The position numbers were made by a program, and so were the translations under genes. Shown here piece after piece: positions 4,656-59,900 of a stretch of DNA of 64,000 nucleotides (position 1 is the stretch's first letter; each line of letters starts with the position of its first letter). The notes beneath the pieces were generated by a model. That model did not search any database, was not told where the DNA came from, and saw only the letters and a list, made by a program, of their open reading frames with translations. Source of the stretch: Bacteroidota bacterium (GTDB lineage: Bacteria > Bacteroidota > Bacteroidia > JAHEXY01); assembly GCA_023251875.1 (NCBI GenBank), contig JAHEXY010000002.1, positions 62,001-126,000 of the forward strand, read 5' to 3'.

Positions 4656-5786
4656 GTGAAAATAGAAACCATTTACGATTTATATAACAAGCTCCGAAAA
4701 GATAATATTAGCTTTTTATATCGTGGGCTCTATAATAATAATATTGCTGAAAAAATTAAAAGCTTCAGTGAGTTTTATACGGCTAAAGCAAGTAAAGATG
4801 ATGGCTTTAAAACAAAAGTAGGCAATTTGGTTATCGAGTCCTTTAAAACAATTTTACAACCCGATTCCGCTTATAGCGATCCTTATTTTTTTTCTGTTCG
4901 CTCGTATGACGCCAATTATTTTTTTGCAAGTGCTCAGTATCTTTCAAATGAACATACAGAATTTGTAAAGGCAATGCTTTTGCAAATTGAACAATTAAGT
5001 CCCCAAAAACTCAAGCTCCATTTTTTAGAAATTGTAAAACAAATTGAACAAAAAAAAATTAACGGGCTAGAATTACTGGGCTTGGCTCAAAAGTCGGGAG
5101 AAAAACCTGATTTTAGTTTTAAGCAATTAAACGATAAAGATGTACTATTTTCTTTACAGGTTAAAACAAGGAGTATTTTAGATGCCATGATTAATGAAAA
5201 TGAAGACCCCTTGACTTTAATGGGTTTTGATGCAGAAGAAACAGTTGCAGCTCCTGATGAGCCTATTTCTTTTTCTGAAGAATTATATGAGTTGATGTTG
5301 AAAGAAAATGCCCAAATCATTTTTCATGGCGATTTCTCGCAAAATGCAATACTTCATATTTTAAAAATGATTGAAGAAAATATTGTGCAAACCAAAGGAG
5401 ACATTAACCATGCTAAAAAAGTTATTCTAGTATTGATTGAATTGCTTCAAAATATAAGTAAACATGGAGAAAAATATTTAGGAAACAAAGAAGGTATTTT
5501 TATTTTGAGCAAAAAAGACAATCACTTTGTAATAAGTGCCGGCAATTGGGTAGCTACAGCTACGGTAAAAAAATGGTTACCGCATATTGAAAATATCAAT
5601 AACCTTAATGAATCTCAACTAAGCACATTGTATGCTCAAACTTTAATGGATGGCCCCGGTTCAGAAAAAGGAGGGGCGGGTATTGGATTAATAGATGTAG
5701 CTTTAATGACTGAAGGAAAAATAGAATTTCAAGTTTTTAGAAAAGATAGTCTGTATTCATTTTTTGGATTAAGCGTTACCATATAA
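4656..5786 (+). CDS. SiaB-type protein kinase with two tandem domains, the first apparently inactive
   Basis: The C-terminal half (about residues 210-376) resembles SiaB-family (DUF6272) GHKL-like kinases: IELLQNISKHG as the N-box (Asn for Mg/ATP) and a glycine-rich GPGSEKGGAGIGLIDVAL segment near the end. The N-terminal half (about 1-190) aligns by eye in the same order (YDLYNKLRKDNISFLYRGL, then VIESFKTILQ, then GLELLGLAQKSG), but the N-box Asn/His and the glycine-rich loop are lost. This suggests a fused pseudokinase plus kinase, about double the usual family length. The likely start is GTG at 4656. The stop is 3 bp before the SiaC-like gene, so the two are an operon, and the neighbour is its probable substrate. 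Known family role: switching of SiaC phosphorylation in SiaABCD-type signalling. Catalysis here is inferred. Confidence 0.75.
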   Translation: MKIETIYDLYNKLRKDNISFLYRGLYNNNIAEKIKSFSEFYTAKASKDDGFKTKVGNLVIESFKTILQPDSAYSDPYFFSVRSYDANYFFASAQYLSNEHTEFVKAMLLQIEQLSPQKLKLHFLEIVKQIEQKKINGLELLGLAQKSGEKPDFSFKQLNDKDVLFSLQVKTRSILDAMINENEDPLTLMGFDAEETVAAPDEPISFSEELYELMLKENAQIIFHGDFSQNAILHILKMIEENIVQTKGDINHAKKVILVLIELLQNISKHGEKYLGNKEGIFILSKKDNHFVISAGNWVATATVKKWLPHIENINNLNESQLSTLYAQTLMDGPGSEKGGAGIGLIDVALMTEGKIEFQVFRKDSLYSFFGLSVTI

Positions 5787-5789
5787 ATT

Positions 5790-6179
5790 ATGACAGCATT
5801 AAAACCCATACAAATAAAAGCCACTGAAGACACTCCTTACGTTAATTTAGATAAGGATAATAACAAATTTGAGATTTCAGGTAAATCTTTTCCTGAAGAT
5901 CCAACCGTATTTTATTCTCAAATTTTACAATGGCTAGAAACATATATACAAGAGCCTAGTCCCTTTACCATTTTTGAAATAAAATTTAGTTATTTTAATT
6001 CAGCCAGCGCAAAACAATTATTAAAAATATTTGTTGCATTAAGTAAAATATCCAATACATTTTCTACAACTATAATTTGGTATTACGAAGCGGGAGATAA
6101 AATTATGCGCATAAAGGGCGAGGGCTATAAAAATATGGTGCCCATAGCATTTGAGATAAAAGAAATTGTAGCAATATAA
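5790..6179 (+). CDS. SiaC-like regulatory phosphoprotein (DUF1987)
   Basis: A 129-aa protein matching the SiaC/DUF1987 family: an N-terminal beta strand with TPYVNLDKDNNKFEISGKS, then FPEDPTVFYSQILQWLE, then the hallmark FEIKFSYFNSASAKQLL. In Pseudomonas SiaC a Thr in the equivalent position is the phosphorylation site; here Ser71 in NSAS is the candidate. It follows the SiaB-like kinase by 3 bp, as expected for a kinase-substrate pair. The next gene, a large T9SS protein, starts only 14 bp downstream, so it may be co-transcribed. No SiaA-type phosphatase or SiaD-type diguanylate cyclase is present in the window. Confidence 0.85.
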   Translation: MTALKPIQIKATEDTPYVNLDKDNNKFEISGKSFPEDPTVFYSQILQWLETYIQEPSPFTIFEIKFSYFNSASAKQLLKIFVALSKISNTFSTTIIWYYEAGDKIMRIKGEGYKNMVPIAFEIKEIVAI

Positions 6180-6193
6180 AATATCATATACAG

Positions 6194-9100
6194 ATGAAAT
6201 TAATTTACTCTTGTGCATTTTTACTTTTTTGTTTCTGTAGTGCATTTGCTCAGGCGCCTGATTTTTCTTGGATAAAAACCAATTATGAAGCTATTTTTCC
6301 GTTAACAACTGCTGTTGATTCGTTTGGAAATTTATATGTAGCTGGATATTTTACCCAAGGCTCAGCAACCTTTGGTAACACAACCCTAAATGGAGTAAAA
6401 TCTTTTGATTATCCATTTATAGTAAAATATAATTTTAAAGGCGATGTTATTTGGGCCTTTGGTAATTCTTACAGTAATTGTGATGGTCGATTTAATAAAA
6501 TAGCCATTGATGTTGATGGAAATATATATGTTACGGGGTATTACAGTTCAAGTTCAATAAAATTTGGCAATTACAACTTAACTCTTAATGGAAATTCCGA
6601 TTCATTTATTATAAAATATGACGCTGGAGGTAATGTAATGTGGGCGAATAATATAGGGGGGAGCGATTTTGATTATGTGAAAGGAATAGTTGTGGATGAT
6701 GGTAATGTATATTGTGTTGGCCAATTCAAAAGCAATAATTTGTTTGTAGATGCTATTATTAATGGCAATAGTATAAATGACACCACATTAATCAATAAAA
6801 ACAATCTAAAAAATGATGCATTTATTGTAAAATACAACGGTGCCGGAAGTTTAAAATGGGCTTTAAGTTTTGGAGACAGTATAAGTGAAGATTGCGCTAC
6901 AGAAGTTAGTGTAGCATTAGATCACTCTATTTATATATCCGGATATTGGAATGCTGCGGCAAGTGCTTCAATACATATTGGTCCATCTACCATTACTGAA
7001 AAATCAGGAAATGATGCTCTTATTGTAAAAATAAACAATAATGGCTCTATTGGTTGGGCTAAGTCATTTGGAGGCTATTCAAGCGATCAGGGAAGTTTTA
7101 TTGAAGTCAAAAATTCAATTTATATGGCTGGTCTTTTTTACAGTTCAAGTCAATTTGATACCATTAGCTTAACTTCTACCGGATATAGTGATATTTTTTT
7201 GGTAAAAATGGATACTGCAGGTAACATTAATTGGGCAAAACAAATGGGATGTGCACAATATGATGATATCTATGGAATGGCTCTAGATGCAGATGAAAAC
7301 GTATATTTATCTGGACGTTATGGCCAAAACTCAAACTTTATTGCTGATTCCATTACACTAACTAATAATGGAAAATACGATGCATACTATGTTAAATATA
7401 ATTCTAGTGGAAAAGTTTCTTGGGCATTTGGTTATGGGGGCACTCAAAATGATTACGGCTATGATATAACAACAGATAACCAAAGTAATTTATTTATAAG
7501 CGGAACCTTTACAAGCTCCTCGATTGTTTTATCAAATGACACGCTAGCAAATGCAGGTAATGCAGGCGATTATAATTCGATTATTGCAACTTTGGTAGAT
7601 TACAGCGATACCGTAAGCATAATAGATACTACTCATATTTATTTTCCTCGTAATGGAGGTTTGTATGGAGGTGGCAGTGCAGATTTAGCGTATTCAAAAA
7701 CCGGCACTCGTTTATTTTCAGGTATGCAAACTCCTGCATCATTATTTATTTCAGATGATGGGGCATCAACATGGTATCAAGCTTTTAATAAAGATTCTCT
7801 TGAATATTCAGTTAATGGAATAGTAAGAGGCTGGAGCGGCAAAGCAACAAAAATTTTAACAAACCAAAACAATTGGGTGGCTGTGCAAACCAATCATCCA
7901 AAAGGGAGATACTCTTCTGCAGTTATTAGTTATAGCAATGGAGATACCAATACATGGAAAACCGTGGCAGACCCTGAACAGCTTACCCAATGGGGCTTTG
8001 CATCTCATCATGTATCTGCTATTGCACTATCTGATTATTATTTAATGGTAGCATTAGGTCCATTTATTGTTAAAAAGGGAAGTGGAGCCATTAATCCCTC
8101 AACAGACATTACAAATAGTATTTCAAGTGTTGGTGGCTTGCCATTAAAGTCTACTATTAATAGTATTGCTATTGCAAATAATGCAAATGCCTATCCGTAT
8201 TACATTGCTATTGATACAAACGGATTTACAAATGGATACAATCGTTTACTATATAAATTTGATGGGTCTATTTATTCAAAAATTAATTTACCCTCTAACT
8301 TAAATAGTATATGGGCAGTATTTACACATCCTAAACAAATTAGTGGCGATACTATTTTTATTACTGCAAAAGACACCAATACAAATGCATTTAAAATTTA
8401 TAAATCTTATGATGCAGGTGCAAATTGGGTAGATATTTCTTATTCGTCCGCCACAGATTTTTTAAGTGATGTTGATTACAGTGCTAATTGGAATTTAAGT
8501 GCGAGCAATAATATTATTTTAATTATTCCGGGCAATGCCATTTCAAAAGATTTAGGAACGAGTTGGGAAGTATTAAGTGATACTGCTCATACTGCTAATA
8601 CAATAAACCCTGATAATATCAATACAATTGTTGGCTCTGATAAAACTATTGAAATAAGTACTACCGGCACAACGGGCACATTTAGCAGAACGCAAAGTGA
8701 TGGATTAGAAGCCCTAAACGTAAATAAAATTGCCCGCACAGCAAGTGAAAAGCTATTTTATATTGCCACTAAAACCGGATTGGGTTATACAAAAGAGTAT
8801 CTAAATGATACGCTTACCGAAGCAGAAAAATGGCAATCGCCCCATGGAGCATTTCCGCTTATTTCAGATTCTATTAATTTTGGAGCAGTAGCCATAGATC
8901 CTACAGATTCATTGCATGTAATTGCAGGTTCTCCCTATGGTTTTTATACAACAACAACAGGGGAAATGGGGTTTTCAAAAATAACCCCAACAAATTTCAC
9001 AACAAATAATCCTCAAGTAAAAGATATTTTATTTGTCAATCATAATACGGCCATTGCAGTAACCGGAGGCGATAGCGCCATTGATGCAGGTAAAGGAAAT

Positions 9101-9988
9101 ATTTGGAAAACGATAGATGGGGGGGGAAATTGGACCAATGTTTCGCCTTCTGGATTTAAAAGTGGAAACACCATTGCAACAGGTAACATAGGTGCAGATA
9201 CAGTAATTTATGTAGGCACAGGATTACTAAATATCGACACTGGTTTTATATGGAAGTCAAACGATATAGGCCAAACCTGGGCGCAAATAAAAAATGGCCC
9301 AACCTCATTAGCCGGAACAAGTGTATTGGGTTTGCCCATCAATGATATTGCCGTTGATCCTCGTGGACGAGATACCCTATACATTGCAGCAGGTTATGAA
9401 GAGGAGTATGCATTTGTGCTTTCGTTTGACGGAGCAGAAACATATACTTATTTAAATTCTTATGCACAAAAACCATACACTTCAATTGGTATTCACAAAC
9501 AATTTCCCGATACAGTTTATTTAGCAACAGGCAGAGAAATTTATTTATATGATTTAGCCCATAATAATTTCAGATTTATGTATCGTAGTTTACCTGATGT
9601 TCAAATTCCGGATATTATGACAGGTTCCATCATTGTTGCCACCTCAACAGGACTGTATACCTACCGCCCCACATGGGAAGATGATCTTGATTCAGGCATT
9701 ATTGTAAACAATTCTTTAAAGATGATTGATAATAATGAACTAAATGTATTTCCCAATCCATTTACCGATGAAGCAACAATAAAATTGTATGTGAAAGAAA
9801 ATAGCAAAGTAAGTATTGAAATGTATGATCTAATGGGACAAAAAATAGAATCTATTTATATTGGCTCTTGTAAGCAAGGTTATACCAATTATGAAATTTC
9901 TCCTAACAATTTATCATCAGGAAGTTATTTGCTTTATGCAAATGTTAATGGGTTACCGTATAGAAAGTTATTGTATCATGTGAGGTGA
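6194..9988 (+). CDS. T9SS-exported surface protein, SBBP-repeat head with Asp-box propeller chassis (copy 1)
   Basis: 1,264 aa. A signal peptide (LIYSCAFLLFCFCSAFAQ) is followed by repeats of the SBBP type (about residues 20-470), each with a GN.Y..G.F strand and DAFIVKYNGAGSLKWA-like ends. From residue about 487 (NGGLYGGGSADL) a second region carries Asp-box/BNR motifs such as SDDGASTWYQ, SYDAGANW, TIDGGGNW and SNDIGQTW, implying a beta-propeller. The last 75 residues (VFPNPFTDEATIKLYVK to LLYHVR) are a type A T9SS sorting domain. The second half is shared with the genes at 11006 and 15874. The start 14 bp after the siaC-like gene suggests co-expression. Likely an exported or cell-surface protein; ligand unknown. 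Confidence 0.85.
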   Translation: MKLIYSCAFLLFCFCSAFAQAPDFSWIKTNYEAIFPLTTAVDSFGNLYVAGYFTQGSATFGNTTLNGVKSFDYPFIVKYNFKGDVIWAFGNSYSNCDGRFNKIAIDVDGNIYVTGYYSSSSIKFGNYNLTLNGNSDSFIIKYDAGGNVMWANNIGGSDFDYVKGIVVDDGNVYCVGQFKSNNLFVDAIINGNSINDTTLINKNNLKNDAFIVKYNGAGSLKWALSFGDSISEDCATEVSVALDHSIYISGYWNAAASASIHIGPSTITEKSGNDALIVKINNNGSIGWAKSFGGYSSDQGSFIEVKNSIYMAGLFYSSSQFDTISLTSTGYSDIFLVKMDTAGNINWAKQMGCAQYDDIYGMALDADENVYLSGRYGQNSNFIADSITLTNNGKYDAYYVKYNSSGKVSWAFGYGGTQNDYGYDITTDNQSNLFISGTFTSSSIVLSNDTLANAGNAGDYNSIIATLVDYSDTVSIIDTTHIYFPRNGGLYGGGSADLAYSKTGTRLFSGMQTPASLFISDDGASTWYQAFNKDSLEYSVNGIVRGWSGKATKILTNQNNWVAVQTNHPKGRYSSAVISYSNGDTNTWKTVADPEQLTQWGFASHHVSAIALSDYYLMVALGPFIVKKGSGAINPSTDITNSISSVGGLPLKSTINSIAIANNANAYPYYIAIDTNGFTNGYNRLLYKFDGSIYSKINLPSNLNSIWAVFTHPKQISGDTIFITAKDTNTNAFKIYKSYDAGANWVDISYSSATDFLSDVDYSANWNLSASNNIILIIPGNAISKDLGTSWEVLSDTAHTANTINPDNINTIVGSDKTIEISTTGTTGTFSRTQSDGLEALNVNKIARTASEKLFYIATKTGLGYTKEYLNDTLTEAEKWQSPHGAFPLISDSINFGAVAIDPTDSLHVIAGSPYGFYTTTTGEMGFSKITPTNFTTNNPQVKDILFVNHNTAIAVTGGDSAIDAGKGNIWKTIDGGGNWTNVSPSGFKSGNTIATGNIGADTVIYVGTGLLNIDTGFIWKSNDIGQTWAQIKNGPTSLAGTSVLGLPINDIAVDPRGRDTLYIAAGYEEEYAFVLSFDGAETYTYLNSYAQKPYTSIGIHKQFPDTVYLATGREIYLYDLAHNNFRFMYRSLPDVQIPDIMTGSIIVATSTGLYTYRPTWEDDLDSGIIVNNSLKMIDNNELNVFPNPFTDEATIKLYVKENSKVSIEMYDLMGQKIESIYIGSCKQGYTNYEISPNNLSSGSYLLYANVNGLPYRKLLYHVR

Positions 9989-10052
9989 GTTCTGGCGCCT
10001 CAGTTGCTGTGCTTTGAAAATTTTCAGTTTCCCCCAAAAATCACCTCAACCC

Positions 10053-10922
10053 CTAAGCATTTTTTAGTTTTCTTATTTCTTCAACAGTTAAATCTGTAAT
10101 TTCAGCAATTTGCTCAATAGGCATGTTTTTTCTCAGTAGTTTTTTTGCTATTTCAATGTTTCTTTCTTTTTTTCCTTTTATCTCTCCTTTTATTATTCCT
10201 TTCGCTATTCCTTTATTTTCAACATCTATAAGCAAGGTTTTTTCGGATCGTATACTATCCCAATATTTGTCGTATGTTTCTAATTCTGTTACACTGTATG
10301 AACTTTCTTCAAGAAGAAGCAGGGCTTCTTTTATTTCAGGTATTTCCGATAAATCTTTCAGCAAATCGTCTTTATAGCTTTCCATTTCGGCTATAAACTT
10401 TAGCCATAGCACCTGCAATTTTTTTTCAGTAAGGTTCTTTGCTTTAAATTTGGGTAATTCAATAAATACAAATTCCAAGCCTTCCATTTTTTTGTTCGAA
10501 TTCTCTGTATGAACAATATTATAGTGATGGTAGTAGCTTTCAGTATCCTTATCAAAATCTTGATTAACCAAACTTAAAGAAAAAACAGGATCGAGGCTTT
10601 TATAGCCTTTCGATTTTTCTAATTGCTTTACATAAGCTTTTGAGGCGTTAAACAAAACCCGGCTTTTAAAACTATCTGTCCATAGCATTTGCATTTCCAC
10701 AATAAACTGTCGGCTATAATTATCAACACAACGAACATCTACAATTGAATGTTTTAACACAGGAATTTCAGGTACTAATTCGGCAGGTAAATATTCTAAG
10801 CTAACAATTTGTTGGCCTTCTTGTAAAGGCATTAAGGCATTCAAAAAACTTTTTAACAAATGCGGATGTTGCCCAAAAATTTTTTTGAATGTTAAATCAT
10901 TTTTGGGATCAAGATAGCGCAT
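10053..10922 (-). CDS. Rpn-family recombination-promoting nuclease / PD-(D/E)XK transposase-like protein (copy 1)
   Basis: 289 aa with the Rpn/PDDEXK-transposase signature: N-terminal MRYLDPKNDLTFKKIFG, then VDVRCVDNYSRQFIVEMQM with the expected catalytic residues Asp62, Glu76 and Gln78, and a lysine-rich C-terminus with IAKGIIKGEIKGKKER and a small helix-turn-helix-like end (MPIEQIAEITDLTVEEIRKL). Known family role: DNA endonuclease that stimulates recA-independent recombination. It lies reversed between two related T9SS genes. Only 9 residues differ from the copy at 14922-15791. The start ATG follows a TATCTTTG -7 element by about 20 bp. No inverted repeats typical of an insertion sequence were seen. 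Confidence 0.88.
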   Translation of the reverse strand: MRYLDPKNDLTFKKIFGQHPHLLKSFLNALMPLQEGQQIVSLEYLPAELVPEIPVLKHSIVDVRCVDNYSRQFIVEMQMLWTDSFKSRVLFNASKAYVKQLEKSKGYKSLDPVFSLSLVNQDFDKDTESYYHHYNIVHTENSNKKMEGLEFVFIELPKFKAKNLTEKKLQVLWLKFIAEMESYKDDLLKDLSEIPEIKEALLLLEESSYSVTELETYDKYWDSIRSEKTLLIDVENKGIAKGIIKGEIKGKKERNIEIAKKLLRKNMPIEQIAEITDLTVEEIRKLKNA

Positions 10923-10942
10923 AATTTTTTCAGGTTTACCAT

Positions 10943-10950
10943 CAAAGATA
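10943..10950 (-). promoter_or_regulatory. -7 element (TATCTTTG) for Rpn copy 1
   Basis: Matches the Bacteroidota TAnnTTTG -7 consensus on the minus strand, 20 bp before the Rpn ATG. It is conserved in the duplicate copy (15811-15818). No clear TTTG -33 box was seen. Confidence 0.5.
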
Positions 10951-11005
10951 CAGCATTTTATCGTAATTTCAGCGAGAATTAGATCTTCACTTCAACTAAA
11001 AACCC

Positions 11006-14000
11006 ATGAAAAAGATCATACGTATTTTCTTTGCTTTTTTATTGCTGCACCCAAATATAAATTTTGCCCAAAATCCAAGTTACGAATGGAGCAAAAGCGT
11101 AAATTATAATTCTGGAGTAACTCCCAATAGAATGGCTATAGATTCTTATGGCGGGCTATATACATGTGGTCATTTTGTAGGGTCATCTACTAATAGCGTT
11201 GAGTTTGAAAATACATCTCTTTCAGGTTCAAATGTAGGTTATGACAATTCGTACCTTGCCAAATATAATTCGAATGGATATCTAGCTTGGGCGGTTCAGC
11301 CGTTAAAGGGTTCAACCCTAAGTTCTAGCTACGATTATATCAATGGCATTGCTGTTGATCTTACCGGCAATAGTTATGTTACAGGATTGTTTTTTTCAGA
11401 GCATTTAATTTTTCATTTCGATACATTAAAAAACTCCACTTCTTCAGATGATATATTTCTAGCTAAATATGATGCAGGTGGGAATGCATTATGGGCACTG
11501 AGCCTTCAAAATATGGGAGGTACATCCGGACAAGAATGTACAGCTATTGCAATTGATAATGAAGGCTACATTTATTGTAGCGGTAATTTTTATAATGATT
11601 CTCTTCTAATTCATTATAAACATAATAATTCCATTAGTGACACTATTATACCCAATAGTGGGAATGGAGTACAAAATAATAATGCTGATATATTTTTGAT
11701 TAAATATACAGCTGATGGAGATTTGGTATGGGCAAATAAATATGGTGGGGCAGATGTAACGGAATCATCATCATGTATGGCTATTGATGCAAATAACAAT
11801 ATTCTTATTGGAGGGTATATGATGAGTGGAACAGCAATTTTAGGAATTGATTCTCTTACTTCCAAAGGTAAAACGGATGGTATTATAATGAAATTGGATC
11901 CAAATGGTAATGTATTATGGGCTAATCAAGTTGGGTCTACGAATGAAGATCGAATATATGCTGTAAAAGCGAATAACAATATATATTTGACCGGCTATTT
12001 TACGGCCGACCTTAGCTGTGGAAAAGATACGCTGACCAATAATAATAGCAGTCAAGATATTTTTTTAATTAAGTTAGACAGTTTAGGCAGTATTATATGG
12101 GCTAAATCTTTTGCCGGCAATGGTGACGATTATCCTTTTGAACTTTCTTTAGATAATAACAATGAAGGTATACTTTTGTCCGGACTCTATTTATCATCTT
12201 CTATTGTGATTGGTAATGATACTTTACAAAATAATGGAAGTTATGGCACTCGCGATATATTTTTAGCAAAAATAGATTCTATAGGAAATGAAAAATGGGC
12301 AGTTCCGATAGGAGGTAATGACTATGAAGATTTACCTTCCATTGCATACGGAAGTGGTCAACATTTTTATTTGACAGGTAGCTTTAATAGTCAGTCAATG
12401 GTTTTGGGTTCAAACACCTTGGTTAATAGTAATTCTATATTTAACCTGTTTATAACAGCGCTTATTGACAATGACACTACTGGCAATATAAGTGAAGATA
12501 CTACTTCTACAACTTTGGTTTATGAATTAAATAATGGCGGCTTATACGGAGGCTCCAGTGCTGATTTAACTTATTCACAAACCGGCAATCGCCTGTTTTC
12601 AGGAATTGAAACACCGGCTTCTTTGTTTATTTCAGACGACAATGCTACAACATGGTACCAGGCATTTGACAATGATTCATTGGAAGATGCAAGCGAAAGC
12701 AAAGGCTGGAGCGGAAAAGCAACAAGAATTGTAGGCAATCAAAAAGGCTGGGTAGCCGTGCAAACCAACCATCCTAAATTAAAATATTCTTCAGCTGTTA
12801 TCAGCTATAGTAATGGGGATACCAATACATGGCAAACGGTTGTAGATCCGGTAAGGCTTACTGAATGGGGCTTTGCTTCTCATCATGTATCAGCCATTGC
12901 TTTGTCTGATTATTATTTAATGGCGGCACTTGGCCCTTTTATCGTAAAAAAAGATAGTGGAAAAATTAATCCTTTAACAGATGTGATGAGCATTCTTACA
13001 ACTACTTTCAATTTTCCTCTTACTTCAACTATTAATTCCATTGCGTTATCAAATAATGCAAATGCCTATCCTTTTTATATTGCCATTGATGAAAGCGGAG
13101 ATGAAAATGGATACAACAGAAGATTATTAAAATACGATGGAACTAATTTTACGGAATTAACCTTGCCTTCTTCACTCAATGGCATTCGTGCTGTATTTAC
13201 ACATCCTGCCCAAACAACAGCAGATACTTTATTTATTACAGCTATGGATGTAAATACAAATGCATATAAAATTTATAAATCGTTTGATGCAGGAAATAAT
13301 TGGACAGATATTTCCTATTCATCCGCAACTGATTTTTTAAGCGATGTAGATTACAGTGCAAATTGGAATTTAAGTGCAAGCAATAATTCAATTTTAATTA
13401 TTCCGGGCAATGCCATTTCAAAAGATATGGGTAGTACTTGGGATACATTAGGAACTGATCATACTGCAAATGCAATTGATCCTGCTAATGTGAACACAAT
13501 TGTAGGATCAGGAAAATCAATTGAAATAAGTACAGGAACTACACTAAGTTTTACTAAAACAACAAGCTATGGACTAGCAGCATTAGAAGTAAATAAAATT
13601 GCACGCACAGAAAATAAATCTGTTTTTTACATTGCTACAAAAACCGGCCTAGGTTATACTACCGCTTATCTTGATACCAATTTAACAGCCGGTCAAAAAT
13701 GGGAAACTCCTTATGGTGTTTTTCCTTTGATAACTGATACCATTAATTTTGGCTCCGTAGCCATTGATCCTACAGATTCATTACACGTAATTGCAGGTAG
13801 CCCTTATGGATTCTACACAACAAAAACAGGATACAATGGATTTTCTGCGATCACACCTTCAAATTTTTCAACTAACAATCCACAAGTAAAAGACATTGCT
13901 ATACTAAATAATAACATTGCCATAGCTGTAAGCGGAGGAGACAGTACCTATGATGCAGGCAAAGGAAAAATATGGAGAACCTCTGATGGCGGCCTTACTT

Positions 14001-14857
14001 GGACAGATATTTATTCACCAACTAATTTTAGCAATGGTAACAGCATTGCTTTAGGCTATGGAAAAGATACGGTGATTTATATTGGAAGCGGATTAATGAA
14101 TGTTGACAAAGGTTATTTGTGGAAATCGAATGATAAAGGCATTACATGGAATAAAATAAACAATGGACCCACTTCAATGGCAGGCACCAGCATACAGGGG
14201 CTTCCCATAAATGATATTGAAGTTGACCCAAGAGGAACAGATACATTATATATTGCTGCGGGTTATGAAAACGAATATGCTTTTATTTTGTCTATGGACG
14301 GAGGTAGTTCCTATATTTATATAAACAACTTTAGCGGAAATCCTTTTACCTCAATTGCAATCAATAATGACAATCCTGATACTGTATATGAAGCATCCGG
14401 AAGAGAGATATATTTATATGATTTGGCCAATAACAATTCCCGTTTTATGTTCAGGCTTTTGCCCGATGAACGCATCCCTGATTTAATGAGTGGATCTATT
14501 ATAGCAGCTACCACAACCGGATTATACACCTATCGCCCCACTTGGGAAGATGATCTTGATTCAGGCATTATTGTAAATAATGCTATAAAAATGGTGAACA
14601 ATAATGAAATGACAGTATTTCCTAATCCATTTACCGATGAGGCAACAATAAAATTGTATTTGAAAGAAAATAGCAAAGTAAGTATCGAAATGTATGATCT
14701 AATGGGACAAAAAATAGAATCTATTTTTAGTGGTTCTTGTAAGCAAGGTTATAGCAATTATCAAATTGCTTCTCATAATTTACCCTCAGGAAGCTATCTA
14801 CTTTATGCCAATGTAAATGACTTGCCATATAGAAAATTGTTGTATCACGTGAGGTGA
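11006..14857 (+). CDS. T9SS-exported surface protein, SBBP-repeat head with Asp-box propeller chassis (copy 2)
   Basis: 1,283 aa. Signal peptide KKIIRIFFAFLLLHPNINFAQ; SBBP-like repeats to about residue 500 (for example DIFLIKYTADGDLVWANKYGG); then the shared chassis beginning at NGGLYGGSSADL (nt 12533) with Asp-box motifs SDDNATTWYQ, SFDAGNNW, TSDGGLTW and SNDKGITW; and a C-terminal type A T9SS sorting domain ending in RKLLYHVR. The head is only distantly like copy 1, whereas the chassis is nearly the same as copy 3. The leader upstream of the ATG is also shared with copy 3. Predicted to be exported and cell-attached. Its role (adhesion, binding or enzyme) cannot be told from sequence. Confidence 0.85.
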   Translation: MKKIIRIFFAFLLLHPNINFAQNPSYEWSKSVNYNSGVTPNRMAIDSYGGLYTCGHFVGSSTNSVEFENTSLSGSNVGYDNSYLAKYNSNGYLAWAVQPLKGSTLSSSYDYINGIAVDLTGNSYVTGLFFSEHLIFHFDTLKNSTSSDDIFLAKYDAGGNALWALSLQNMGGTSGQECTAIAIDNEGYIYCSGNFYNDSLLIHYKHNNSISDTIIPNSGNGVQNNNADIFLIKYTADGDLVWANKYGGADVTESSSCMAIDANNNILIGGYMMSGTAILGIDSLTSKGKTDGIIMKLDPNGNVLWANQVGSTNEDRIYAVKANNNIYLTGYFTADLSCGKDTLTNNNSSQDIFLIKLDSLGSIIWAKSFAGNGDDYPFELSLDNNNEGILLSGLYLSSSIVIGNDTLQNNGSYGTRDIFLAKIDSIGNEKWAVPIGGNDYEDLPSIAYGSGQHFYLTGSFNSQSMVLGSNTLVNSNSIFNLFITALIDNDTTGNISEDTTSTTLVYELNNGGLYGGSSADLTYSQTGNRLFSGIETPASLFISDDNATTWYQAFDNDSLEDASESKGWSGKATRIVGNQKGWVAVQTNHPKLKYSSAVISYSNGDTNTWQTVVDPVRLTEWGFASHHVSAIALSDYYLMAALGPFIVKKDSGKINPLTDVMSILTTTFNFPLTSTINSIALSNNANAYPFYIAIDESGDENGYNRRLLKYDGTNFTELTLPSSLNGIRAVFTHPAQTTADTLFITAMDVNTNAYKIYKSFDAGNNWTDISYSSATDFLSDVDYSANWNLSASNNSILIIPGNAISKDMGSTWDTLGTDHTANAIDPANVNTIVGSGKSIEISTGTTLSFTKTTSYGLAALEVNKIARTENKSVFYIATKTGLGYTTAYLDTNLTAGQKWETPYGVFPLITDTINFGSVAIDPTDSLHVIAGSPYGFYTTKTGYNGFSAITPSNFSTNNPQVKDIAILNNNIAIAVSGGDSTYDAGKGKIWRTSDGGLTWTDIYSPTNFSNGNSIALGYGKDTVIYIGSGLMNVDKGYLWKSNDKGITWNKINNGPTSMAGTSIQGLPINDIEVDPRGTDTLYIAAGYENEYAFILSMDGGSSYIYINNFSGNPFTSIAINNDNPDTVYEASGREIYLYDLANNNSRFMFRLLPDERIPDLMSGSIIAATTTGLYTYRPTWEDDLDSGIIVNNAIKMVNNNEMTVFPNPFTDEATIKLYLKENSKVSIEMYDLMGQKIESIFSGSCKQGYSNYQIASHNLPSGSYLLYANVNDLPYRKLLYHVR

Positions 14858-14921
14858 GTTCTGGCGCCTCAGTTGCTGTGCTTTGAAAATTTTCAGTTTC
14901 CCACAAAAATCACCTCAACCC

Positions 14922-15791
14922 CTAAGCATTTTTTAGTTTTCTTATTTCTTCAACAGTTAAATCTGTGATTTCAGCAATTTGATCAATAGGCATGTTTTTT
15001 CTCAGTAATTTTTTTACTATTTCAATGTTTCTTTCTTTTTTTCCTTTTATCTCTCCTTTTATTATTCCTTTCGCTATTCCTTTATTTTCGGCATCTATAA
15101 GCAGGGTTTTTTCGGAACGTATGCTATCCCAGTATTTGTCGTATGCTTCTAATTCCGTTGTACTGTATGAACTTTCTTCAAGAAGAAGCAGGGCTTCTTT
15201 TATTTCAGGTATTTCCGACAAATCTTTCAGCAAATCCTCTTTATAGCTTTCCATTTCTGCTATAAACTTTAGCCATAGCACCTGCAATTTTTTTTCAGTA
15301 AGATTCTTTGCTTTAAATTTGGGTAATTCTATAAACACAAATTCCAAGCCTTCCATTTTTTTGTTCGAATCCTCTGTATGAACAATATTATAGTGATGGT
15401 AGTAGCTTTCAGTATCCTTATCAAAATCTTGATTAACCAAGCTTAAAGAAAATACCGGATCGAGGCTTTTGTAGCCTTTCGATTTTTCTAATTGTTTTAC
15501 ATAAGCTTTTGAAGCATTAAACAGTACCCTGCTTTTAAAACTATCTGTCCATAGCATTTGCATTTCCACAATAAACTGTCGGCTATAATTATCAACACAA
15601 CGAACATCTACAATTGAATGTTTTAACACAGGAATTTCAGGTACTAATTCGGCAGGTAAATATTCCAAGCTAACTATTTTTTGACCTTCTTCTAAAGGCA
15701 TTAAGGCATTTAAAAAACTTTTTAACAAATGCGGATGTTGCCCGAAAATTTTTTTGAATGTTAAATCATTTTTGGGATCAAGATAACGCAT
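14922..15791 (-). CDS. Rpn-family recombination-promoting nuclease / PD-(D/E)XK transposase-like protein (copy 2)
   Basis: 289 aa, same length as copy 1 and differing at 9 positions by my reading (for example Q34E, Q38K, and E for D in the IEQIAE/IDQIAE end). The catalytic residues Asp62, Glu76 and Gln78 are kept, so both copies look functional. It has the same reversed orientation and the same distance to the flanking T9SS genes. The changes are scattered and conservative, consistent with a fairly recent duplication under selection for an intact protein. The -7 element upstream is also kept. Confidence 0.88.
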   Translation of the reverse strand: MRYLDPKNDLTFKKIFGQHPHLLKSFLNALMPLEEGQKIVSLEYLPAELVPEIPVLKHSIVDVRCVDNYSRQFIVEMQMLWTDSFKSRVLFNASKAYVKQLEKSKGYKSLDPVFSLSLVNQDFDKDTESYYHHYNIVHTEDSNKKMEGLEFVFIELPKFKAKNLTEKKLQVLWLKFIAEMESYKEDLLKDLSEIPEIKEALLLLEESSYSTTELEAYDKYWDSIRSEKTLLIDAENKGIAKGIIKGEIKGKKERNIEIVKKLLRKNMPIDQIAEITDLTVEEIRKLKNA

Positions 15792-15810
15792 GATGTTCTA
15801 AATTTGCCAA

Positions 15811-15818
15811 CAAAGATA
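15811..15818 (-). promoter_or_regulatory. -7 element (TATCTTTG) for Rpn copy 2
   Basis: Same TAnnTTTG match and surroundings as the element upstream of Rpn copy 1. It lies 20 bp before the ATG. Confidence 0.5.
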
Positions 15819-15873
15819 CAGCATTTTATCGTAAATTCAGCGAGAATTGGTTCATCGCTTCAACTAAAAACCC

Positions 15874-18800
15874 ATGAAAAAATATTTACTTTTTTTACTC
15901 ATCCTATTAAGCTCTGCCAAAGGCTATGCACAATGTAATATTGAATTTGTAGCCGATACCAATCCTATTTCTGACCCATTTAATGTGGTAGATGTGGGTA
16001 CTAATTCTACTCCCACATTTACAGATATAGATAATGATGGAGATCTGGATGCTTTTATTGGCGAGTATTATGGACATATTTATTATTACCAAAATACTGG
16101 ATCTTTATCAAGCCCTGTATTTATCCTGCAAACTGGAAGTACGGATCCATTTAATGGAATTCAAGTGGCCAGTATGTCTACTCCCTCTTTTGCAGATATA
16201 GACAATGATGGGGATATGGATGCTTTTATTGGGGAGGAATTTGGAGATATTCATTATTACCAAAATACTGGATCTTCATCAAGCCCTGTATTTGCTTTGC
16301 AAACCGGGGCTACAGATCCATTTAATGGAGTGGATGTTGGTTATAATGCTACTCCCTCTTTTGCAGATATAGACAATGATGGGGATATGGATCCTTTTAT
16401 TGGGGAGAGTAATGGAAATATTAATTATTACCAGAATACTGGATCTTCATCAAGCCCTGTATTTGCCCTGCAAACCGGAAGTGCGGATCCATTTAATGGA
16501 GTGAATGCGTTGTCTTATTCTGCTCTCTCATTTGTAGATATAGACAATGATGGGGATATGGATGCTTTTATTGGGGAGGCATATGGAAATATTTATTATT
16601 ACCAAAATACTGGATCTTCCTCAAACCCTGTATTTGCCCTGCAAACTGGAACTGCAAATCCTTTTAATGGGGTGGATGTGGGCTTTTATTCTGCCCCCTC
16701 ATTTGCAGATATAGACAATGATGGAGATATGGATGCTTTTATTGGGGAGAGTAATGGAAATATTAATTATTATTATAATTCAAGCTCAAATGGACTTGGA
16801 TTGGTAGCAAACATTGTTGATGAAGTAGGCATAAATGATGGGGCTGTTGATGTAACAACAAATGGAGGTTTAGCGCCCTACCTATACGATTGGGATAACG
16901 ATGGAACAGGCGATTATGATGACAATGAAGATATTTCGGGCCTGGCTGCCGCAACCTATACGCTTGTAGTTATAGATGCCAACGCATGTTCAGATACAAT
17001 AACAGTTGTAATAAACAAAACTTCGACAGAAGAAATTATCATGCCTGATAATGGAGGGCTATACGGAGGCAGCAGTGCCGATTTAACTTTTTCACAAACC
17101 GGCAATCGCCTGTTTTCAGGAATTGAAACACCGGCTTCTTTGTTTATTTCAGACGACAATGCTACAACATGGTACCAGGCATTTGACAATGATTCATTGG
17201 AAGATGCAAGCGAAAGCAGGGGCTGGAGCGGAAAAGCAACAAGAATTGTAGGCAATCAAAAAGGCTGGGTAGCCGTGCAAACCAATCATCCCAAATTAAA
17301 ATATTCTTCAGCTGTTATCAGCTATAGCAATGGTGACACCAATACCTGGCAAACAGTTGTAGATCCGGCAAGGCTTACTGAATGGGGCTTTGCTTCACAT
17401 CATGTATCAGCTATTGCCTTATCAGATTATTATTTGATGGCGGCACTTGGCCCTTTTATCGTAAAAAAAGATAGTGGAAAAATTAATCCCTTAACAGATG
17501 TGATAAGCATTCTTACCACAATCTTCAATTTTCCTCTTACTTCAACTATTAATTCCATTGCGCTATCAAATAATACAAATGCTTATCCTTATTATATTGC
17601 GGTAGATGAAAGCGGAGATGAAAATGGATACAATAGAAGATTATTAAAATACGATGGAACAAATTTTACGGAATTAACCTTGCCTTCTACACTCAATGGC
17701 ATTCGTGCTGTATTCACACATCCTGCACAAACAACAGCAGATACTTTATTTATTACCGGCATGGATGTAAATACAAATGCATATAAAATTTATAAATCGT
17801 TTGATGCAGGAAATAATTGGACAGATATTTCCTATTCATCCGCAACTGATTTTTTAAGCGATATTGATTACAGTACCAATTGGAATTTAAGTGCCAGCAA
17901 TAATTCAATTTTAATTATTCCCGGAAATGCAATTTCAAAAGACATGGGCAGCACTTGGGAAACATTAGGAACTGATCATACTGCAAACGCAATTGATCCT
18001 ACCAACGTGAATACAATTGTAGGATCAGGCAAATCAATTGAAATAAGTACAACCGGAACTACTGGAAGTTTTACTAAAACAACAAGCTATGGACTAGCGG
18101 CATTGGAAGTAAATAAAATTGCCCGCACAGAAAATAAATCTATTTTTTACATTGCCACCAAAACCGGATTAGGATATACTACAGCTTATCTCGACACCAC
18201 TATTTCAGCCGGACAAAAATGGGAAACACCCTATGGGCAATTTCCATTGATATCTGATACCATTAATTTTGGAGCCGTAGCTATTGATCCTGCAGATTCA
18301 TTACACGTAATTGCGGGTAGTCCTTATGGATTTTACACAACAAAAACAGGAACTAATGGATTTTCTTTAATAACACCCTCAAACTTTACAACTAATAATC
18401 CACAGGTTAACGACATCGTTTTTATAAATCACGACACAGCTATTGCGGTAACAGGAGGAGATAGTGCTTATGATTCAGGCAAAGGCAATATCTGGAAAAC
18501 AACTGATGGCGGATTAAGCTGGGACAGTATTTCGCCATTGGGATTTTCGAGTGGCAATACCATTGCCAAAGGAATTTTAGGGGCAGATACGGTAATTTAT
18601 GTTGGAACCGGACTACTAAATGTTGACAAAGGTGTTGTTTGGAAATCGTTTGACTTAGGGCAAACCTGGAAGAAGATGATAACGGATATTAATTCAATGG
18701 CAGTAACAAATGTACAGGGTTTGCCTATCAATGATATTGCAGTTGACCCAAGAGGGAGAGACACCTTGTACCTAGCTGCGGGGTACGAAAATAATTATGC

Positions 18801-19377
18801 ATTTGTATTGTCGTTAAATGGAGCCAAGACAATTAATTATCTTAATTCCTACTCAGATAAAACATATTCATCTATTGCTGTAAATGAAAAAAATCCTGAT
18901 ACAGTGTACGTATCTACCGGCAGAGAAATATATTTATATGATTTGGCAAATAACAATTCCCGTTTTATGTTCAGGCTTTTGCCCGATGAACGCATCCCTG
19001 ATTTAATGAGTGGATCTATTATAGCAGCTACTTCAACCGGATTATACACCTATCGCCCTACTTGGGAAGATGATCTTGATTCAGGCATTATTGTAAATAA
19101 TGCTATAAAAATGGTGAACAATAATGAAATGACAGTATTTCCTAATCCATTTACCGATGAGGCAACAATAAAATTGTATGTGAAAGAAAATAGCAAAGTA
19201 AGTATCGAAATGTATGATTTAATGGGACAAAAAATAGAATCTATTTTTAGTGGTTCTTGTAAGCAAGGTTATAGCAATTATCAAATTGCTTCTCATAATT
19301 TACCCTCAGGAAGCTATCTACTTTATGCCAATGTAAATGACTTGCCATATAGAAAATTGTTGTATCACGTGAGGTGA
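15874..19377 (+). CDS. T9SS-exported surface protein, VCBS/FG-GAP-repeat head with Asp-box propeller chassis (copy 3)
   Basis: 1,167 aa. Signal peptide KKYLLFLLILLSSAKGYAQ. Residues about 35-305 are five 57-aa repeats with the calcium-binding DIDNDGDMDAFIGE motif (VCBS/FG-GAP type), followed by a SprB-like segment (NGGLAPYLYDWDNDGTGDY to ACSDTITVV). From nt 17050 the protein switches to the same Asp-box chassis and type A T9SS sorting domain as the genes at 6194 and 11006. It is therefore the same export/propeller body with a different head. The leader matches copy 2. The 60 bp after the stop still resemble the spacer before Rpn, but no Rpn gene follows. Predicted surface protein; ligand unknown. 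Confidence 0.87.
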   Translation: MKKYLLFLLILLSSAKGYAQCNIEFVADTNPISDPFNVVDVGTNSTPTFTDIDNDGDLDAFIGEYYGHIYYYQNTGSLSSPVFILQTGSTDPFNGIQVASMSTPSFADIDNDGDMDAFIGEEFGDIHYYQNTGSSSSPVFALQTGATDPFNGVDVGYNATPSFADIDNDGDMDPFIGESNGNINYYQNTGSSSSPVFALQTGSADPFNGVNALSYSALSFVDIDNDGDMDAFIGEAYGNIYYYQNTGSSSNPVFALQTGTANPFNGVDVGFYSAPSFADIDNDGDMDAFIGESNGNINYYYNSSSNGLGLVANIVDEVGINDGAVDVTTNGGLAPYLYDWDNDGTGDYDDNEDISGLAAATYTLVVIDANACSDTITVVINKTSTEEIIMPDNGGLYGGSSADLTFSQTGNRLFSGIETPASLFISDDNATTWYQAFDNDSLEDASESRGWSGKATRIVGNQKGWVAVQTNHPKLKYSSAVISYSNGDTNTWQTVVDPARLTEWGFASHHVSAIALSDYYLMAALGPFIVKKDSGKINPLTDVISILTTIFNFPLTSTINSIALSNNTNAYPYYIAVDESGDENGYNRRLLKYDGTNFTELTLPSTLNGIRAVFTHPAQTTADTLFITGMDVNTNAYKIYKSFDAGNNWTDISYSSATDFLSDIDYSTNWNLSASNNSILIIPGNAISKDMGSTWETLGTDHTANAIDPTNVNTIVGSGKSIEISTTGTTGSFTKTTSYGLAALEVNKIARTENKSIFYIATKTGLGYTTAYLDTTISAGQKWETPYGQFPLISDTINFGAVAIDPADSLHVIAGSPYGFYTTKTGTNGFSLITPSNFTTNNPQVNDIVFINHDTAIAVTGGDSAYDSGKGNIWKTTDGGLSWDSISPLGFSSGNTIAKGILGADTVIYVGTGLLNVDKGVVWKSFDLGQTWKKMITDINSMAVTNVQGLPINDIAVDPRGRDTLYLAAGYENNYAFVLSLNGAKTINYLNSYSDKTYSSIAVNEKNPDTVYVSTGREIYLYDLANNNSRFMFRLLPDERIPDLMSGSIIAATSTGLYTYRPTWEDDLDSGIIVNNAIKMVNNNEMTVFPNPFTDEATIKLYVKENSKVSIEMYDLMGQKIESIFSGSCKQGYSNYQIASHNLPSGSYLLYANVNDLPYRKLLYHVR
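15976..16788 (+). repeat. five in-frame 171-bp tandem repeats (VCBS type)
   Basis: Units begin at 15976, 16147, 16318, 16489 and 16660; the last is shorter. Each encodes PFNG(V/I), then SFADIDNDGDMDAFIGE, then NTGSSSSPVFALQTG. The exact 57-codon period and high DNA identity make the array prone to copy-number change. Confidence 0.9.
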
Positions 19378-19434
19378 GTTCTAGTGTCCAAGTTGCCGTG
19401 CTTCGAAAACTTTCAGTTTACCCAAAAAATCAGA

Positions 19435-19578
19435 TCAACGTAGTTTGAAAATTTTTCCTTCTAAACCAAATTTTTCAACAACTTCTATTTTCAATTTAGT
19501 TTGAAGCAACCAGTCTATCGTATAATCCCTTAGTCTTTCAAGTAGTTTTGATTTTTCTGTTTCGGAAAATAAATTCAT
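19435..19578 (-). CDS. small hypothetical protein (47 aa) where a third Rpn gene would be expected
   Basis: An ATG-to-TGA frame of 47 codons, beginning MNLFSETEKSKLLERLRDYT and ending in GLEGKIFKLR. It looks protein-like (amphipathic, charged helix). It starts where the spacer shared with the two Rpn loci ends. I do not recognise it. It could be a small protein or the fragment left after replacement of an Rpn gene. Confidence 0.4.
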   Translation of the reverse strand: MNLFSETEKSKLLERLRDYTIDWLLQTKLKIEVVEKFGLEGKIFKLR

Positions 19579-19627
19579 AGTTATTCTTTTTTTAAGATAT
19601 TAACTATTTAGTCAATTTGTTTTTAAA

Positions 19628-56950: not shown

Positions 56951-59900
56951 CTATTCTTCATTAAGTGCATCATTAATTTTTTGCTCCCATTGTTGCTCAA
57001 TTAATTTATTGGCTCTATCAGTTGCACTACCTCCTGTATTTTGTGAACCTGAATTATAATCGTCTAATGTATAAGTTGGCGACCCTTTCCAATATTTAGC
57101 CATGGGAGATGGTTTTTCATATACATCATATACTTTTAATGAGCCCCCAACTAATGGTTTAGGTTTTGGACTAGATGGTGTTTTAATTTTAATATCAGTA
57201 ACACCTAAGTCAAATACTTCTTGAGAAGGTTTTTGTAAAACTATAATTTCATCTGGAAATGTAAGACCGTTTTGCTTTTCAGGAGTATTATTGTTTTTGG
57301 AGTTTTTGGTATCTTGTATTACATCTGCAACTGCACTTATAGGTCCTTCAATATTGTGTGTTGGAGCGTAGCCTTCTTCAGATTTTACTCTATTAGAATA
57401 TAAAAATGATACCCAAATTGCATGCTTCCATGCATCTCTAGTTCCAGCACTTTCCATTTCCTCTAAAGAAGTATAGGTTGTAATTGTTGTTGTACGTTGA
57501 GGCTCCCCATTATCATCTGTATTATTGTCTTGAATTATTGTTAACTCATATATATCTGAACCTCCAGCTTTATCTACACCTTCTAAAGTTCTATGAAAAA
57601 CAGGATTTCTGCCTTGGCTTTGAGTATAGTGATACACATCTCTCCCATCCGGATCCACAAAGTTTATTGGATTATCAATCGCAAAATTATACGGGCTCCA
57701 AGAAACATATTTTGCCTGCATTGGATCTAAACTCAGCCACCTGCCCACTCTAGGGTCATAAATACGGGCGCCAAAATCATATTCTATTCCCTCGCCTTCC
57801 ATTTCATTCATTTTTTCTTTGCCATTAAAACCAAAGCGGCTTGTAGTAGTGCTATAATTATTGCCCACCATTTGCATACCATAAGCATAATAATTATTTA
57901 GGCTTGTTACATCGGCTGTATAATTGCCTGGTTTTTTTGCAGCATCAAGTGTTGAAAGTTTTACATCACTAATGGTTACACGTATATTGCCTAAGTGATC
58001 GACTATTTCGTATTGCTTTTGGTTCAATTTACGCTTAAAGCCATCTGTTGGTGCCAGGTAGGCATTATCTGTAGTTTTGCCCGCTGAGCGTATGGTTATG
58101 CTACTTGGTTTGTATTCGCCAATGCGTTGGTTTCCTTTAATGGGTTCTTCTTTTAATTTTAATGTTTTGGTAGTGCCTGAACCGGTTTCTTCATAAATGG
58201 CTTGTATGCCCCCCTTGGTATCTAATGCATAATAAGTAGTGGTGACGGTTAGCCCATCGGCAGCAGTATATTTTTTAGAAATTTTATTACCCATAGGGTC
58301 GTATTTAAATTCTATAATTTCTTTAGTGGTTTTAGTAACTTTAGTTGGTTTGTTTTGCACATTCCATTCTATACTGCTTATTTTACCGCCTACATCTTTG
58401 GTTAAATTGCCTATTGCATCGTAAGTATAATTACCTGCAGCTTGGTTATCAATATCTGTTGTGTAATTAGTTGCAGCAACGGCATCTGTTACATAAGCTA
58501 ATTTATTGGTGTTGGCTGTATAATTATAAGTAAGGTTATCCATACTTAAAGAAGTAGTTTTAGCCGCATTCTCGTATCCATTTCGCTTGAAAGCTGTAAT
58601 ATTACCATTATCATCATAGCTTAGATCCATTGAATAGTTAAGGGAATTTGCAAATGCAGAACCGTTATATGCATATAAAGCAGCACTTGTTAATCTGTTT
58701 AACTTGTCATAGCGATATAAATATCCCCATGCATCATTATAAGTTAAGCCTGTAGCGGCTGTAGGCAAAGCGGCTTTACTTACTTCAGTAGTAATTATGC
58801 CATTGTATTTTGAAAAAGAATCATATATCATGCTATATTTATTATTTTTATCAGTATTAAATGCGGATCCCTTTCTATAAAAATCGCCATAATAATAACC
58901 AAGCATACTGGCAAATGCATCGGGTGCAAAAATCTGAGAACTTGAATTATCTAAACCAGGATCGAGTGTTTTATCTAATGACGAATGATTGATTCCTTTA
59001 AGCCAACCTTGCAGGGTATACATATAATCGACACCTTGTAAATGATCTTCCCCAATTTCGGTTCTTTTTAATGGGCCATGTTTGTAAAAAGAATAAGCCG
59101 CATCGGTTTCGTAAAATTTATCATCAATAGATGTTTCTACTTTTGTTAAACGACTATTGGCATCATAAGTAAAGCGGTGGTAAAACTGATCTAATTGCCC
59201 GGCATTAAATTTTTCTTTTGTTACTAAATTGCTGAGTAAATCATATTCATATTCTGTAATGTGCACACTGGTTGATGACGCATCTAAACCCGGAACATAA
59301 GTATACAATTTAGCAACATTGCCATGGGCATCATACGAATAAGCAATGTAAGCGCCATCATCATTTTTTACATAACTGATTCTATTGCGTAAATATTTTT
59401 GTGTATTGGCACTTGAAAGAGATGGGCAAACTGTAGTATACACAGTGTAAGTTCTGCTACTGCCTGTTGTTGGGCTTGTAGTAACATCAACATAATTTGA
59501 AAGTGTGCTGTAGTTTTCTTTACTTTCACCGGTTTCTATAATTCTGCCAAGAGCATCATATTTAATATAGGAATAGGATGTACTTGCTTTTTGTTTGTCG
59601 TTAACACTAAAACGCAAGCGTTTTTTGCTATCGTAATAATATGTAATTTCTCCTCCATCTGTTGTTTTTTTGCGAACCACTTGGCCTAAAAAATTATAAT
59701 CGTATTCTGTTTCATAACTATGTGAGGGATGGTTTTTAGCACGATCTGTTGAGGTTGTTACAACTCCTTTAGGAGCAACAGTGCGCACTAAATTACCGGC
59801 ACGATCGTAATAAAACAGGGTGTAATTACTCAATGCTCCAGAACTTTCAATACAATTGGCAATTACTTGCCCATTAAAATTAACTAAGCTCACTGTTTTG

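Follow-up and report, generated by a model that had tools for sequence, protein, structure and literature searches.

Among the described systems that come closest to the locus studied here are the gingipains and HagA of Porphyromonas gingivalis, T9SS surface proteins with interchangeable domains and a common sorting tail, whose domain variants reassort through recombination (PMC5266723). The nucleases lodged between the genes of our locus also have studied relatives. Rpn proteins are products of toxin-antitoxin genes that protect against phages; their four-residue repeats affect the specificity of the RpnS antitoxin, and rpn arrays arise by tandem duplication, no evidence having been obtained for autonomous transposition of rpn (Zhong et al., PMC10327210). 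In Escherichia coli, overexpression of Rpn raises RecA-independent recombination (PMC5350276).

Here we analyze an array of three T9SS genes and two rpn genes in a window of 64,000 nucleotides of a Bacteroidota genome. An earlier note had taken it for a locus that builds new surface proteins by exchanging heads on a constant body, with Rpn as the recombination factor embedded in each unit. Most probably, the array instead consists of three members of an expanded T9SS family, whose modules were reassorted by homologous recombination and among which the rpn genes are incidental.

Composition of the array

The features of the array are listed in Table 1. Profile matches above the curated cut-off were obtained for Por_Secre_tail/TIGR04183 at the C terminus of A, B, and C, for SBBP repeats in A and B, and for FG-GAP repeats in C, and all three proteins are predicted T9SS type A cargo. 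A chassis of about 780 amino acids is common to them and can be aligned up to the stop codon, as had been noted before; the junctions given at the time (7652, 12533, and 17050) were also correct, except that the chassis starts one codon earlier in each gene. Chassis identity at the nucleotide level is 74% for A and B, 74% for A and C, and 88% for B and C, and both the length and the identity of the repeats in the array are far above chance expectation. As for the heads, that of C is indeed unrelated to the others, while the SBBP heads of A and B, described as divergent, are homologous (34% amino acid identity).

The near-identity of the two rpn genes was likewise recognized correctly (97% for the proteins). 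The leader that precedes gene B, of which a similar copy precedes gene C, is however not simply a common element of the T9SS genes: part of it is the rpn upstream region, and the same stretch occurs upstream of another rpn gene elsewhere in the genome. This stretch contains TATCTTTG, which we take to be a Bacteroidota -7-like box.

Table 1. Features of the array, in positions of the window
Feature	Position	Strand	Remarks
Gene A, SBBP-head T9SS protein	6194..9988	+	1264 aa
Chassis of A (double propeller and sorting tail)	7649..9985	+	tail from about 9698
Rpn1, PD-(D/E)XK nuclease of the Rpn family	10053..10922	-	289 aa; four-residue repeats in the C-terminal region
Divergent intergenic leader	10923..11005	.	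rpn upstream region (TATCTTTG, minus strand) and start of gene B
Gene B, SBBP-head T9SS protein	11006..14857	+	1283 aa
Chassis of B	12530..14854	+	middle ~0.5 kb diverged from C, both ends near-identical
Rpn2	14922..15791	-	97% amino acid identity with Rpn1
Divergent intergenic leader preceding gene C	15792..15873	.	
Gene C, FG-GAP-head T9SS protein	15874..19377	+	1167 aa
FG-GAP units in the head of C	15976..16772	+	4.7 tandem units of 171 bp
SprB-like segment, from the head end of C to the fusion point	16773..17046	+	profile match below cut-off
Chassis of C	17047..19374	+	tail from about 19087

Directly upstream of gene A, at window positions 4656-6179, are genes for a SiaB-type kinase and a SiaC phosphoprotein, a biofilm-type regulatory pair that here adjoins surface-protein genes. 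On the 3' side of gene C (19378-19590, minus strand), about 55 nt resemble the downstream flank of A and B, and are followed by a short minus-strand frame (about 47 codons) in the place that rpn would occupy. Farther along the window are a gene for a 1533-aa RHS-repeat protein (56954-61552, minus strand) and, next to it, the stretch 61612-63957, without a Pfam match.

The chassis family

The chassis had been treated as a feature of this locus. When the propeller part was searched against the whole genome of 4.8 Mb in 23 contigs (E <= 1e-20), 34 copies were recovered, none of them with an internal stop. The AlphaFold2 model of the chassis was confident (pLDDT 88.9), with the tail fold at its end, and the chassis is accordingly modelled as a double beta-propeller followed by a type A sorting tail. 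The same genome holds at least 150 T9SS sorting tails, a number that suggests that it also encodes the secretion machinery.

By total length and head comparison, the copies were classed as headless (19), Ig-like (6), SBBP (8), and FG-GAP (1), where Ig-like is our label for a common head of about 220 amino acids with two repeats, to which Pfam gave no name. Seven tandem arrays together hold 16 of the 34 copies. Directly 3' of one of them, the pair F/G (L007), an SBBP protein with a sorting tail and no propeller is encoded at 14716-16560 of that locus, so that SBBP heads occur on the tail alone as well. The heads are predicted to bind at the cell surface, which is their likely use.

Elsewhere the propeller is rare. 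It was found in two further genomes among 395 at the class level, with at most three candidates scored per genome, and in one among 395 at the phylum level, while a scan of GTDB contigs returned three loci, from two Bacteroidetes metagenome-assembled genomes and one weak match. In each of four closer relatives one copy was found, carrying an Ig-like head, and a single chassis copy per relative genome is likely. The chassis has thus grown to 34 copies within one lineage, as a lineage-expanded family.

Heads in relation to the chassis

The propeller tree groups C with the eight SBBP proteins in a single clade (SH-aLRT 100), inside which C is the sister of B. Head states require six changes on this tree, compared with 17.6 when the labels are shuffled. 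Head class is therefore largely inherited together with the chassis, gene C being the one replacement among the 34 copies, besides which the Ig-like head was gained or lost a few times. Co-inheritance of head and chassis had been named beforehand as the pattern that would speak against head exchange, and it does largely hold at the level of head class. It is also what favors the plainest alternative, duplication followed by fast divergence of the heads under selection, with recombination only at the origin of gene C; in agreement with it, heads evolve about two times faster than propellers in vertically inherited pairs.

Below the level of class, the co-inheritance breaks down. For the eight SBBP proteins, AU tests reject the propeller topology on the head data (p 0.012) and the head topology on the propeller data (p 6e-5), an incongruence that is good, not final, evidence, as the alignments of the head repeats may be out of register. 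Together with the sharp junction at the start of the chassis and the replaced head of C, these separate histories are what remains of the proposed exchange of heads on a constant body.

The head of C has up to 66% amino acid identity with FG-GAP proteins elsewhere in the genome. Two of these (C10:40485 and C15:182595) have the order FG-GAP repeats, SprB-like segment, sorting tail, and gene C has the identical order up to the SprB-like segment, after which the chassis follows about where the tail would begin. The simplest reading is that the head of C came from a fusion at a module boundary, the donor being probably a protein of this FG-GAP class; the fusion appears too old for its donor gene to be named. 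The 171-bp units themselves are 80-84% identical to one another, and are propeller blades that were amplified recently.

Programmed switching, by inversion, silent cassettes, or a diversity-generating retroelement, usually presents in a similar way, with a constant body and heads that vary. Inversion and other site-specific exchange are not supported, no inverted repeats having been found at the junctions. Among the head-like sequences elsewhere in the genome no silent head cassettes were seen; these sequences lie in open frames of at least 561 codons and are not silent fragments. From these searches for inverted repeats and silent cassettes, we regard programmed switching as the least probable of the explanations considered.

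Mosaic tracts

The clearest sign of recombination comes from the tandem pair F/G, at a locus without rpn, in which the chassis are 98% and the heads 57% identical at the nucleotide level. Agreement at 4-fold degenerate sites is 281 of 294 for the propeller, against 35 of 75 for the head. The common tract begins about 70 nt before the chassis and ends shortly before the stop codon; downstream of it, the flanks are unlike each other. A tract that is confined to the chassis between differing flanks is the pattern expected of gene conversion. Because the signal-peptide regions are also alike, copying of the body and replacement of the head would leave the same picture. The near-identity of F and G is known from the assembly alone and may be an assembly artefact.

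Pairs of proteins from different species among the relatives served as a vertical baseline, with no relative close enough to polarize individual events. The ratio of head to propeller distance is 40 in F/G against 2.4 and 2.1 in the between-species pairs, and that of tail to propeller distance is 0.4 against 3.0 and 2.8.

B and C form a patchwork. Identity between their chassis is 85-98% in the first ~1.3 kb, falls to 65-75% in the following ~0.5 kb, and is 98-100% in the last ~0.45 kb. No good match that could have served as donor for the diverged middle of either gene was found among the paralogues of the genome. Near-identical internal tracts between diverged flanks, by which a gene-conversion family is recognized, are thus present in both F/G and B/C. 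In addition, tails are more alike than propellers in the tandem pairs A/B, B/C, O/a1_3, and M/N and in the unlinked pair D/J, and the reverse, propellers alike and tails unlike, was observed in X/c22 and e19/i19. These conflicts indicate that sorting tails, too, have probably been exchanged between members of the family.

Duplication with selected head divergence accounts poorly for these results. The synonymous sites of F and G, which contradict it if that region is correctly assembled, differ in the head and not in the propeller, and the F/G ratio of 40, the B/C patchwork, and the conflicts between tail and propeller all stand against it, so that we consider it unlikely.

The rpn genes

Rpn1 and Rpn2 match PDDEXK_2 and, over its full length, TIGR01784 (E about 1e-38, above cut-off). 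A comparison of their genes shows 39 differences in 870 nt and nine amino acid changes, and with so few differences the genes look maintained and locally duplicated; most likely, the two copies stem from one local duplication. The genome has four rpn genes, two of them in this array and none at the other chassis loci. A third copy (C17), 84% identical to those of the array at the nucleotide level, lies away from all chassis genes, beside an IS66 transposase gene. Beyond the coding sequence the likeness extends only ~40 nt upstream of the start and not past the stop codon, and the protein has two four-residue repeats fewer in its C-terminal region. For an internal start from which an RpnS could be made there are only two candidates, TTG at codon 230 and ATG at codon 267. 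With PADLOC, only one Rpn was matched, weakly and uninformatively, and relatives of Rpn on plasmids have at most 46% identity, the best being in Candidatus Megaira/Megaera.

That Rpn nucleases embedded in the array drive active head exchange on the constant chassis was proposed in the earlier note, and this can draw on the two rpn genes inside the array, on the E. coli overexpression phenotype (PMC5350276), and on the differing histories of head and chassis. The distribution of the genes does not bear it out. The strongest homogenization, that of F/G, and the other tail exchanges occurred with no rpn nearby, rpn is present at only one chassis locus, the third copy has no chassis neighbor, and the array pair most likely arose by local duplication; the Rpn tails, moreover, bear repeats of the type found in the anti-phage toxin-antitoxin genes, in line with the anti-phage literature. 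Nothing requires a contribution of Rpn to the exchange, which is not supported, and we judge an Rpn-driven diversification locus to be very unlikely. By analogy, the rpn genes of the array are putative phage-defence type genes, which would merely be lodged between its members. Still less credible is the wider version, in which all 34 members reassort actively, cells differ in their combinations of head and chassis, and breaks made by Rpn raise local exchange.

Discussion

The reading that we prefer, reassortment within an expanded family, starts from a plan of optional head, double beta-propeller, and type A sorting tail. Reassortment would have proceeded by gene conversion and unequal crossing-over, mainly between tandem neighbors. 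As recombination acts between similar genes, it would keep chassis and tails alike and leave diverged heads untouched. In gene C, a single head replacement would have fused an FG-GAP and SprB-like protein to the chassis near the point at which that protein's own tail would start. An rpn gene of phage-defence type may have been inserted in the array and then duplicated locally, without being the engine of the exchange.

The family illustrates clearly how T9SS surface proteins evolve by modules in nature: in one lineage, a chassis expanded to many copies and gained different heads, and recombination kept the copies alike. Relatives provide a vertical baseline against which the reassortment of modules can be measured, and this part can be set apart from a causal role of Rpn, which is tempting but unsupported; the annotation of Rpn as recombination-promoting is an easy source of error for readers of genomes.

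Several parts of the array have counterparts in known systems. The Rpn proteins, here known from sequence alone, are like the described toxin-antitoxin and anti-phage nucleases in the full TIGR01784 match, the variable number of C-terminal four-residue repeats, the solitary mobile occurrence, and the arrays formed by local duplication (PMC10327210). The chassis shares its double beta-propeller with PorZ and the GH74 xyloglucanases (best Foldseek matches 5m11 and 5fkt, E about 1e-18 to 1e-20), but at 12-14% identity and a TM of about 0.5 this is a resemblance of fold only, and on this evidence it is a member of neither family. The FG-GAP head of C is an instance of the recent blade amplification described for beta-propellers, with no difference of substance (PMC9218822). 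Comparable in overall design are the gingipains and HagA. There, variation is at the strain level and concerns the adhesin domains of a few proteins, whereas here the evidence is entirely within-genome and concerns an unrelated double-propeller chassis present in 34 copies.
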